Positions 7,855 through 10,771 of a DNA stretch of 32,515 nt are shown here, one piece after another. The stretch is from contig NZ_JANFNH010000064.1 in the NCBI RefSeq assembly GCF_024436055.1, positions 1-32,515 of the forward strand, read 5' to 3'. The position numbers and the translations under genes were made by a program. Below the pieces are notes generated by a model, which saw only the letters and a list, made by a program, of their open reading frames with translations, was not told where the DNA came from and did not search any database. The stretch's first letter is position 1, and every line of letters begins with the position of its first letter. This DNA comes from Streptantibioticus rubrisoli. Lineage in GTDB: Bacteria > Actinomycetota > Actinomycetes > Streptomycetales > Streptomycetaceae.

Positions 7855-8329
7855 GGGGAAGCGGAGAAGCGGGGGCGGGCGTGTAGCGGTAGCCGACCTG
7901 GCGCACGGTGGAGATCAACTGCCGGTGCGCCGCGCCGAGTTTGCCGCGGAGGCGGGCGATGTGCACATCGACGGTACGGGTGCCGCCGACCGCGGGCTGG
8001 TTCCACACCGCGGCGATCAACTGGTCCCGGCTGTGCACCCGTCGGGGGTGCGCGACCAGATGGGCGAGGAGTTCGAACTCCAGATACGTCAGCTTCAGCA
8101 CCCGGCCGTCGATCGAGGCCACCCGGCGCTCGGTGTCGACGGTCAGGCCGGGGGCCGAGGACACCTCGGGGACGGTGACGGCCTGGGCCGACGGGACGGC
8201 TCTGGGGGCTTCGGGCGCGGTGACGGCCTGGGCCGACGGGACGGCCCTGGGCGCCTCGGTCGCGGGGATCTCCCGGAGCGGCGGTATGAAGACGGCATGG
8301 CGGTGGGCTCGGGGGTAGCGGACGGGCAT
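7823..8329 (-). CDS. Receiver-less winged-helix regulator
   Basis: This 168-residue protein has an OmpR/PhoB-type winged helix at about 62-152 (GLTVDTERRVASIDG, LTYLEFELLAHLVAHP, TRTVDVHIARLRGKL, RQVGYRYTP). It has no receiver domain. Instead the N terminus is a Pro/Ala-rich segment with a 15-residue tandem duplication (APRAVPSAQAVTAPE then APRAVPSAQAVTVPE, residues 26-55). The ATG at 8329 has AAGGAG about 6 nt upstream. It lies in the M-box operon, 36 nt after the MgtC-like gene. Without a phosphorylation domain its activity is presumably set by abundance, for example through the Mg2+-sensitive leader (inference). Confidence 0.88.
   Translation of the reverse strand: MPVRYPRAHRHAVFIPPLREIPATEAPRAVPSAQAVTAPEAPRAVPSAQAVTVPEVSSAPGLTVDTERRVASIDGRVLKLTYLEFELLAHLVAHPRRVHSRDQLIAAVWNQPAVGGTRTVDVHIARLRGKLGAAHRQLISTVRQVGYRYTPAPASPLPRATMDGRDRA
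8174..8263 (-). repeat. 45-bp in-frame tandem duplication
   Basis: Two 45-bp copies (8174-8218 and 8219-8263) differ at only a few bases and encode the duplicated Pro/Ala-rich 15-mer of the winged-helix protein. It may vary in copy number between strains. Confidence 0.85.
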
Positions 8330-9146: not shown

Positions 9147-9281
9147 GGAGGTCACCTCCAGGAAGGGGTCACGGGGGCACGACAGCGCTCCCGCGGCACG
9201 CGGGGGGGGGTCGGTCAACGTGCTGGTGTCGCGGGGCGGTTCGGAAACCGCGACGGCGGCAGCGGCGGTCGGCGAAGGGCG

Positions 9282-9413
9282 CTAGCGGTCAGCGGCGGAG
9301 CGCTCGGAGCGCGACACCGGACACGGCGAGTAGGCGCACGGAGCGAGCCGGGTGTGCGGCTGACTGTGGCCCGGAGTGCTCGCGCCGTTCGACGTACTGC
9401 TACTGGGATCCAT
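9282..9413 (-). CDS. Candidate leader peptide, 43 codons
   Basis: This is a 43-residue ORF starting ATG at 9413 and ending TAG at 9282. A strong GGAAGGAGG ribosome site lies about 7 nt upstream. The peptide starts MDPSSSTSNG, contains six prolines and two cysteines, and has no hydrophobic stretch. It lies between the M-box and the first operon gene. By analogy with the proline-rich mgtL leader peptide of Salmonella mgtA it might couple translation to downstream expression, but that is inference. It could also be a non-functional ORF. Confidence 0.38.
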   Translation of the reverse strand: MDPSSSTSNGASTPGHSQPHTRLAPCAYSPCPVSRSERSAADR

Positions 9414-9510
9414 GTCTGTCGCCTCCTTCCGGCCGGGGCCGCGCATCGCACGCGTCATCATCGACTCGGCAGGAGCGGACCGGCCCGTACGACCGACCGG
9501 CTCACCCCAA

Positions 9511-9665
9511 CTCGTCAGAGCTTTGGCACTTCACGGCGTAGTCCCCTGGTGGGGGCAGCCACTTGGGGTCACCCCTTAACTCGGGGAGACCTGTCCTGAT
9601 CCGGAGCGTCTCTCGACGGGTGGGATCAGTGGCCTGTGTCCGTGAAGACGCCTCACCGAACGAGG
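9511..9665 (-). ncRNA. M-box (ykoK) magnesium riboswitch
   Basis: Read on the minus strand, this about 155-nt segment carries the M-box consensus blocks in order and spacing: TCGTTCGGTGAGGC near the 5' end, GAGAGACGC in the middle, GAGTTAAGGGGTGA, and GTGCCAAAGCTCTGACGAG at the 3' end. P1 is formed by CTCGT (9664-9660) with ACGAG (9515-9511). Compared with my memory of the B. subtilis mgtE M-box (GGTGAGGC, AAAGACGC, CAGTGCTAAAGCTCTACGA), these blocks match closely. M-box RNAs fold when Mg2+ is plentiful and shut off downstream genes. The four small genes at 7369-9146 follow. I see no clear U-tract terminator, so the output may be on translation or Rho-dependent termination. Confidence 0.93.
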
Positions 9666-9687
9666 TGCCTCCTGTGGAACCACCGGC

Positions 9688-9718
9688 AGTATAAGCAGCT
9701 AGTTGCGTATCGACGCAA
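9688..9718 (-). promoter_or_regulatory. Promoter of the M-box transcript with inverted repeat
   Basis: On the minus strand, TATACT (9693-9688) is a good -10 box, placing the start near 9680, about 15 nt before the aptamer. TTGCGT at 9718-9713 could be a -35 with a long (19-nt) spacer. That hexamer is one arm of a perfect inverted repeat, TTGCGT-ATCG-ACGCAA (9703-9718), which could be an operator. Confidence 0.55.
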
Positions 9719-9724
9719 GTAGCG

Positions 9725-10771
9725 TCAGGAGCGCGTCAAGGCGCGCACCATGTAGGAGTTCCAGACCGGTGTGGCCCCCAGTGACCGCTGGTGCGCGGGG
9801 TTGAGGTCCTTGAGGAAGCAGGCCATCACCGCGGGCTGGCCGTCGAGCGGCCGCACGGCGTAGACCCGGTTCCGGATGCCGGGCAGGCTGCCGCCCTTGA
9901 CCAGGACGTCCTGGTACAGCTCGGCGTTGCCCGGAACCTCGCGCATCGGCCAGCTCAGCACGGACCGGGCGAACGACAGCGGCGCGCCCTCGAGCGGGCT
10001 GTCCAGAACGGCCTGGAACAGGCCGACCCACTCCCGGGGCGTACCGGCGCAGGTGCGGCGCAGCGCCCGCGGCCCCAGTCCCGCGGAGGGCAGGAACGGC
10101 AGCACCCGGTGCCAGCGCCGCGGATGCTCGGCCAGCCTCTCGTAGTGTGCGGCCAGTTCGGCGGCCGGAAGACGCAGCGTGCGCAGGACGTAGGGCGGCG
10201 AGGTGGCGAGGAACTCCCCGTACAGGGAGGGCACCGGGTCCTGCTCGACCATCCAGTGCCGCCGGGCGAGCTCGGTGACCGCCGGGCTGCCCCCGACCCG
10301 GCGCAGCAGGTAGTCGGTGGAGGCGTTGCAGGAGGCGCTGATCATCGCGTCGGCGCAGTCGCGCAGACTGACCAGCGCATCCGGTGGGGTGTTGACGTAC
10401 GCGTGCCGGTAGGCGCCGCCGTCCGTGCCCGGCAGCCGGAACCGGCGGATCGCATCAAGCGGAACACGTTCCTCCGGATCGATCCGGCCCTCGTGCACCG
10501 CCTCCGAGACCGCGCACAGGACCAGCACCTTGCGCACCGAGGCCAGCGGGAACTTGGCGTCCGCGTTGCGTTCGGCGCGCACCGTCCACCGGCCGTCGCC
10601 GTCCTTGCGGGCGAGCAGGACGCCCGCGTGCTCGCCGCGCTCGCGGAGGAACGCGGCGAAGCCCGCCGGGTCGTCCGGGACGGGACGCCGTGACCGTCCG
10701 CGCCACCAGCGCCCGGTCTGCGACACGAGTGCGGCGAAGGCGAGCAGCAGCCAGGGTATGGACGGGCTCAC
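9725..10771 (-). CDS. Membrane-anchored serine hydrolase, beta-lactamase/PBP fold
   Basis: This 348-residue protein has a short hydrophobic N-terminal segment (5-17) acting as anchor or signal. The three active-site motifs of the penicillin-recognising fold are present: SxxK as SVRK (78-81), SxN as SCN (147-149) and KTG as KGG (292-294). The layout resembles class A beta-lactamases. The GTG start at 10771 overlaps the mycothiol dehydrogenase stop by 4 nt (GTGA), so the genes are translationally coupled. The usual Glu166 loop of class A enzymes is not obvious, so it may be a peptidase or esterase rather than a true beta-lactamase. Its link to formaldehyde detoxification is unclear. Confidence 0.86.

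Follow-up and report, generated by a model that had tools for sequence, protein, structure and literature searches.

We identified an M-box magnesium riboswitch that probably controls its operon through a short upstream reading frame (uORF), in a window of 32,515 nucleotides that is the complete contig C65 of the Streptantibioticus rubrisoli genome. With a probability of about 0.6, we propose that this OFF-type M-box gates the uORF and not ORF2 directly, that uORF translation gates four small genes (ORF2 to ORF5), and that these genes are transporter-less parts of an NRAMP/MgtC operon whose likeliest role is in trans. The unit varies the known M-box/uORF theme in that it leads into a regulatory operon without transporters, which would function at low Mg2+.

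The M-box of the window is genuine. A cmscan search of the entire window matched RF00380 over its full length (model positions 1-169 of 169; cut-off 44 bits, E 1.1e-30), and this was the sole above-threshold Rfam match. The first-pass annotation had placed an M-box on the minus strand at 9665-9511, with a -10 box 23 nt upstream; the covariance match bears out the former, and the box corresponds to TATACT, which lies 22 nt before position 9665 and 16 nt upstream of the Rfam aptamer start. The genome (7.26 Mb) contains five M-boxes, each of full length. The window copy is 92% identical to the M-boxes preceding both NRAMP genes (the second copy on C30, and C38) and 74-75% identical to the other two, and the aptamer scores 132-136 bits in all three compared genomes of the genus. 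A Beta-lactamase2-fold protein (PF13354) is encoded on the same strand at 9725-10771, ending 53 nt 5' of the M-box, and was excluded from the M-box unit.

Between the aptamer and ORF2, 85 nt beyond the former, AGGAGG and an ATG introduce the uORF, which the earlier gene list had omitted although it lies inside the region 9282-9693 assigned there to the riboswitch. Each of the five M-boxes of the genome is followed by such an ORF: one begins MDPSSSTSNGASTPGHSQP..., one MDCSSSSPGHSRP..., one MDCSSSSPGHSQP... and two MSPWSSPEP. The features of the unit are listed in the table.

Table. Features of the M-box unit in the window, in order of transcription
Feature	Position	Strand	Basis or remark
Promoter dyad CTACTTGCGT-CGAT-ACGCAACTAG	9699..9722	-	core TTGCGT...ACGCAA at 9718-9703; possible operator overlapping -35
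-10 box TATACT	9688..9693	-	sequence; 19 nt past TTGCGT; layout shared by two congeners
M-box (ykoK) Mg2+ riboswitch aptamer	9499..9671	-	Rfam RF00380, 135.6 bits
P1 3' strand GGGGTGAGCCGGTC, candidate anti-anti-SD	9495..9508	-	pairs with 9485-9472 in window fold; family test
Candidate anti-SD (alphaSD) GGCCGGTCCGCTCCT	9471..9485	-	hairpin with P1 3' strand
Shine-Dalgarno (SD) AGGAGG of uORF	9422..9427	-	sequence
uORF, 43 codons, MDPSSSTSNGASTPGHSQP..., actinomycete M-box leader ORF	9282..9413	-	kept in both congeners
GGAGG-TGA-CCTCC, ORF2 SD inside self-complementary stretch	9147..9159	-	identical in two congeners
ORF2, 85 aa	8889..9146	-	C-terminal half homologous to ORF5 C-terminus (tblastn, alignment)
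ORF3, 155 aa	8366..8833	-	MgtC_SapB_C PF21770, E 1.9e-11; no membrane part
ORF4, 168 aa, OmpR/PhoB-type winged helix	7823..8329	-	Trans_reg_C PF00486, E 8e-24
ORF5, 155 aa	7369..7836	-	hydrophobic N-terminal half (by eye), ORF2-like C-terminus

Behind the uORF, no transporter was found among ORF2 to ORF5. The first-pass annotation had described four small genes, namely an 85-aa protein in first place, a soluble MgtC-domain protein, a receiver-less winged-helix regulator and a fourth member, and this description stands: all five frames, uORF included, are open in the three genomes of the genus. ORF2 gave no Pfam match at E 1; it looks HTH-like, and since a profile of ORF2 and ORF5 retrieved nothing below E 0.11 from PDB sequences, this likeness is a judgement by eye. 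ORF3 shares the C-terminal MgtC_SapB_C domain with the MgtC family (PF02308 plus PF21770) and matches PDB MgtC 7qa5 at E 5.5e-6; unlike that family, it lacks the membrane domain PF02308, PF21770 being its sole Pfam match. Its N-terminus resembles a small gene of NRAMP operons (46% over 65 aa with the G007 copy) and its C-terminus the MgtC C-terminal domain (41% over 76 aa). ORF4, unlike OmpR/PhoB response regulators, has no receiver domain: Pfam gave Trans_reg_C and a sub-threshold GerE, and NCBIfam regulator models match at their C-terminal part only. ORF5 gave nothing over a Pfam cut-off, which leaves two of the four proteins (ORF2 and ORF5) without an accepted Pfam family. In the two other genomes of the genus, ORF2 to ORF5 are 72-89% identical, with order and M-box conserved, and dN/dS within the genus (ORF2 0.16-0.31, ORF3 0.33-0.57, ORF4 0.28-0.39, ORF5 0.34-0.43) demonstrates that the four genes are under purifying selection. 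The window ORF4 contains a 45-nt tandem duplication (8166-8255), and the ORF4 of the congeners is 15-16 codons shorter.

In other streptomycetes, homologues of ORF2 to ORF5 belong to larger operons of the M-box > uORF type, and no single one holds every piece. These encode NRAMP, ORF2, winged helix and full-length MgtC in G119; NRAMP, a small gene, winged helix, MgtC and ORF5 in G133; and NRAMP, ORF2, a winged-helix match, MgtC and ORF5 in G015 (NRAMP PF01566 at E 4e-77 in the C30 copy, MgtC PF02308 at E 3e-34 in the G133 copy). Because of these homologues, the best reading of the window operon is a paralogue of the M-box > uORF > NRAMP ... MgtC operon that lacks the transporters. Since ORF3 joins a small-gene N-terminus to an MgtC C-terminal domain, the window operon would be that gene set without NRAMP and without the membrane domain of MgtC. 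The earlier suggestion of an undescribed stand-alone system is not supported in view of these operons: synteny of the four genes behind an M-box was recovered in 3/3 genomes of the genus, and elsewhere the genes lie within NRAMP/MgtC operons. M-boxes occur in 54 of 150 genomes of the family. ORF5 homologues are present in 29 genomes, all but one of them (28) with an M-box (Fisher 2e-14, ignoring relatedness), and ORF3/MgtC_C homologues in 35, again all but one (34) with an M-box (Fisher 2e-18, likewise ignoring relatedness). Several ORF5 copies are located on other contigs or 47-90 kb away from the M-box, so the link to the M-box is more than adjacency.

The uORF is not confined to the window. 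We analysed 171 of 182 identified M-box places (one of 84 in f1, three from the class list and seven from the f17 list were left out), where f1 is the family of the window, f17, f18 and f19 are further families of its class, and f4 is a family whose main genus is apparently Mycobacterium, judging from the Pro7 leader peptide and part of the text of PMC12810186. A peptide-blind rule (GGAGG, a start and 12-70 codons, 40-170 nt beyond the aptamer) found a uORF in 78/83 f1 leaders versus 32/1660 shuffled ones (about 2%), in 30/31 versus 13/620 for f17, 24/32 versus 18/640 for f4, 3/4 versus 6/80 for f18 and 3/3 versus 1/60 for f19. Across nine families outside the class the figure was 5/18 versus 12/360; there the uORF is rarer, yet not absent, and in several of these families a long ORF (MFFLSK... 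or MFYL...) begins shortly past the aptamer. Streptomyces sp. RPT161 was the sole named relative found with the leader pattern. In part of f17 (e.g. L053, L058, L153) the uORF is followed by a different protein of about 60 aa (MTITI...); short uncharacterised proteins are thus among the products that M-box leaders serve in this family.

These uORFs likely descend from a common ancestor, judging from peptide comparisons. A profile of f1 uORFs reached at least 8 bits in 17/31 f17 leaders outside its training (20/1760 shuffled leaders), 2/4 in f18 and 1/3 in f19. The motif SPG[HRD]S, picked like PGHxRP after inspection of the data, occurs in 41/83 leaders of f1, 8/32 of f4, 6/31 of f17, 3/4 of f18 and 0/3 of f19, versus 3/4150, 1/1600, 1/1550 and 1/200 shuffles for f1, f4, f17 and f18, respectively. 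The window peptide carries TPGHS, which lies outside this pattern. Most uORF peptides found in f4g20 (MSPGDSPYP..., MSSSDSPGR...) have proline at position 7, a published hallmark of mycobacterial uORF2 (PMC12810186, in part). None of the 32 f4 leaders reached 8 bits with the f1 profile, which leaves position, SD and SPG[HRD]S as the grounds for homology with the mycobacterial uORF. A short ORF in the same place and with the same kind of start is, by these comparisons, not confined to mycobacteria.

Upstream of the uORF, the P1 3' strand GGGGTGAGCCGGTC pairs with GGCCGGTCCGCTC in a hairpin of the window leader. In 34/77 f1 and 16/24 f4 leaders, no more than 10% of shuffles match this P1-3'/alphaSD hairpin; the same shuffle test gave no enrichment in f17 (5/30), f18 (0/3) or f19 (0/3). 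Pairing of alphaSD with the uORF SD did not rise above that of shuffled leaders (f1 median fraction 0.57).

At the other end of the uORF, NRAMP leaders contain a second RNA element. The last uORF codons and the stop (mostly GGCACGCGGTA) pair with GCYGCGTGCC in an 11-bp helix, whose downstream arm lies 40-230 nt beyond the uORF end and upstream of the transporter start. The unselected test of this helix comprised all 60 f1 and f17 leaders ending in G-x-R or G-x-P: pairing scored 24.9 with their own arms, 21.4 with swapped and 17.9 with shuffled ones, and 45/60 were at or above the 95th percentile of shuffles. The arms covary, with compensatory changes. Twelve CATG arms face GCATGCC (11) or GCGTGCC (1, the counter-example G803, outside alignment A1 below), 40 CACG arms face GCGTGCC in 32 cases and GCATGCC in 2, and all three CACACG arms face CGTGTGCC. 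Alignment A1 (27 of 28 rows used; L083 was dropped for a wrong arm) has C-G 17 times and U-A 10 times at column pair 8/158; its near-complete pairing is partly by construction, because rows were chosen for a GC[AG]TGCC arm.

The covariance model built from A1 (R1) found, under strict filters, 36 places in 29 of the 150 family genomes. Of these, 21 are the A1 rows themselves. The remaining 15 comprise 13 places that follow a called M-box, one that follows an M-box truncated where its contig stops, and one at the rearranged end of a contig. The 34 places with a called M-box lie 123-197 nt from it. At E 1, R1 had no match in two f17 leaders with CACACG arms (L165, L177), and the helix-bearing loci L006, L078 and L085, of eight scanned, gave no Rfam match besides the M-box. 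Locus L203, at the end of G146:C128, has a uORF-stop helix and an NRAMP-like start without uORF start or M-box; this end has been either rearranged or misassembled. That a CU stretch further upstream masks the NRAMP SD was not established (14/56 leaders at a fraction of at most 0.1, median 0.375), nor was a comparable long-range pairing of the uORF end in f4 leaders (3/24 at a fraction of at most 0.05).

The possibility that the window leader has this NRAMP-type helix was rejected: R1 gave no match there up to E 5, and 0/3 window-type uORF ends reached a fraction of at most 0.05 in the group test. The window's own value was 0.075 in that test and 0.025 in another draw, with a partner unlike that of NRAMP leaders. 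Of the two stages, the window leader thus retains the first, with its aptamer, pairing of the P1 3' strand, SD and uORF, and lacks the second.

How the unit would work can be outlined by analogy. With Mg2+ bound, P1 would retain its own 3' strand, leaving the CU-rich segment 9477-9471 free to mask the uORF SD; with the uORF untranslated, the leader would be exposed to Rho, or the ORF2 start would stay shut in the GGAGG-UGA-CCUCC hairpin. At low Mg2+, the P1 3' strand would pair with the CU-rich segment and ribosomes would translate the uORF, so that transcription and translation may run on into ORF2 to ORF5. The switch probably acts directly on the uORF, in line with what has been reported for the pe20 M-box of mycobacteria, and both the SD masking and the putative Rho step are borrowed from that precedent (PMC12810186, in part). 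ORF2 to ORF5 would be small and regulatory members of an NRAMP/MgtC operon under M-box control, retained without transporters, and would most likely adjust NRAMP and MgtC-like genes elsewhere in the genome during Mg2+ starvation; we infer both this role in trans and the Mg2+ response of the unit. Observed here are the aptamer, the uORF and its conservation, the homology and co-occurrence of the genes, and a P1/alphaSD hairpin that exceeds shuffles in some f1 and some f4 leaders. More broadly, and at slightly less than even odds, actinomycete M-box leaders may work in two stages: the aptamer would admit a ribosome to a uORF of about 25 codons, and this ribosome, at a stop that is an arm of the second conserved helix, would cover the entire 5' arm and may open the transporter start. 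The first stage would then predate mycobacteria, and the window would be a regulator-only offshoot that kept the first stage and steers transporter operons in trans.

The conservation of the uORF bears on two other explanations. It might be no regulatory frame at all, but a conserved RNA element with hairpins that is open by chance, the M-box acting directly on transcription into ORF2, which we consider unlikely; or the peptide itself might be the product that matters, regulating the transporter or the four proteins, as the discoverers of Rv1805A propose for that peptide (PMC12810186, in part), which appears rather less probable still. Much of the conservation is at the nucleotide level, in keeping with an RNA element and against a peptide product, since both codon choice and wobble bases are under constraint. 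AGT accounts for 42% of Ser codons in f1 uORFs versus 3% in the "genes" of this comparison, the longest downstream ORFs, some of which are not true genes given an f1 GC3 of 0.80. The PGHxRP codons fold into a short hairpin, GGGYC/GRCCC, in which C-G is exchanged for U-A in some uORFs; its wobble pair (Gly and the residue before the second Pro) is C-G in 45 of 62 uORFs, U-A in 5, U-G in 3 and G-C in 1, whereas the remaining 8 have no standard pair there. Actual uORF codons have a median stability among the best 14% of synonymous versions (85 uORFs, 11 of them at 5% or better). Furthermore, pS is 0.45 and pN 0.38 over 91 uORFs, dN/dS within the genus is 0.47-0.92, indicating weak codon-level selection, and in NRAMP leaders the uORF end is an RNA arm, so that base pairing accounts for the conserved C-terminus. 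However, a chance frame does not fit the 78/83 leaders that have a start codon behind a strong SD, nor a nucleotide motif that occurs in 90 of 109 f1 and f17 uORFs picked without it, always in frame (90/90) and at nine distances from the start (6 to 45 nt), which indicates that the frame was kept through indels. The hairpin is also weak in the window type (-3.8 kcal/mol in the G002 copy), and translation of the mycobacterial counterpart has been shown by others (PMC12810186, in part). A peptide product would agree with an N-terminal motif that recurs in four families and with a mycobacterial copy that occurs outside an M-box (same source). We conclude that uORF conservation reflects both peptide and RNA, RNA weighing more; a mainly protein-level signal was rejected on pS/pN, the frozen wobble and codon choice, and the PGHxRP hairpin.

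It is also improbable, slightly more so than a peptide product, that the operon is merely the decaying remnant of an NRAMP/MgtC operon without present function. The missing membrane components (both are absent), an ORF3 that looks like two former genes fused and has a dN/dS of up to 0.57, and the duplication in ORF4 would suit decay, but the five frames are open in every genome of the genus compared, ORF2 and ORF4 have the low dN/dS given above, and the aptamer keeps its score in all three. Gating of the four genes through the uORF remains our preferred reading. Several results given here count against it: alphaSD/uORF-SD pairing at the level of shuffles, no hairpin enrichment in f17 to f19, weak codon-level selection on the uORF, no f4 leader reaching 8 bits with the f1 profile, a window uORF without the C-terminal arm of NRAMP leaders, and a one-mismatch dyad count close to that of its control.

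The sole experimentally studied M-box with a uORF that we found in the open-access literature is mycobacterial and was reported in 2026: the M. tuberculosis pe20 M-box controls uORF2 via a translational platform and Rho (D'Halluin et al. 2026, PMC12810186, cited for part of its text). The window resembles it in the M-box, a P1-end anti-anti-SD pairable with a CU-rich anti-SD, a strong SD, a short SD-led uORF soon after the aptamer with a Ser/Asp/Pro-rich start, and an operon that can contain mgtC; it differs in its downstream genes, which are ORF2 to ORF5 without PE/PPE, and in uORF length (43 codons versus 24-29 in f4 leaders). The uORF2/Rv1805A peptide has been called mycobacteria-specific in that source, whereas here SD-led uORFs follow most M-boxes in four other actinomycete families. 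We found no report of the M-box/uORF arrangement outside mycobacteria in the open-access literature, covered as main texts with few subscription papers; the main text of four Streptomyces Term-seq papers (PMC8780764, PMC8914203, PMC8269248, PMC6742748) contains no mention of magnesium, M-box, ykoK, uORF or leader peptide.

Other magnesium-responsive leaders share single aspects with the window. It has the aptamer in common with the B. subtilis ykoK M-box (RF00380). That M-box uses an intrinsic terminator and controls its transporter directly. It is described as a transcriptional OFF-switch (PMC12810186, in part). The Salmonella mgtA and mgtCBR leaders are alike in working. One of their short leader ORFs is mgtL, beside mgtM and mgtP. 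To our knowledge, these leaders have no M-box, and their RNA and peptides are unrelated to those of the window. Translation of such an ORF reshapes the RNA before Mg2+ stress genes (PMC3641672, in part).

If the pattern holds, M-box control via a translated uORF would be general among actinomycetes and could be tested in harmless Streptomyces. Because the end of the uORF overlaps an RNA helix, there is a concrete candidate for a second switching stage, supported by compensatory base changes, and since the uORF end doubles as a helix arm, the peptide looks conserved without strong codon-level selection. Additionally, the transporter-less operon contributes four small proteins whose link to Mg2+ supply comes from co-occurrence in genomes or from a shared operon.

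A dyad in the promoter may add a further layer of control. TTGC-N8-GCAA lies 45-49 nt upstream of 8/83 f1 M-boxes, among them those of the window, both congeners and the C38 NRAMP gene, and occurs 11 times in total in 171 M-box upstream stretches versus 2 times in 830 control blocks (400 nt). The longer dyad pattern, with at most one mismatch, has three places in the S. rubrisoli genome, two of which are M-box promoters; the backwards control pattern has two places. The window promoter and the C38 NRAMP M-box promoter have a related dyad in common, and it is plausible that dyad-bearing M-box promoters share a regulator, for which ORF4 is a candidate by position only.

M-boxes also occur in pairs. 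On C30 (L006:2891-3890) a tandem M-box pair encloses a gene for a 92-aa protein (MRIELTWP...) without a Pfam family, and the M-box on C93 is followed by a similar 90-aa protein (L007:4518-4790). In L117 (G077:C15), two divergent M-boxes lie about 200 nt apart, with ORF2/ORF4-like genes on one side and an NRAMP-like gene and an MgtC_C match on the other.
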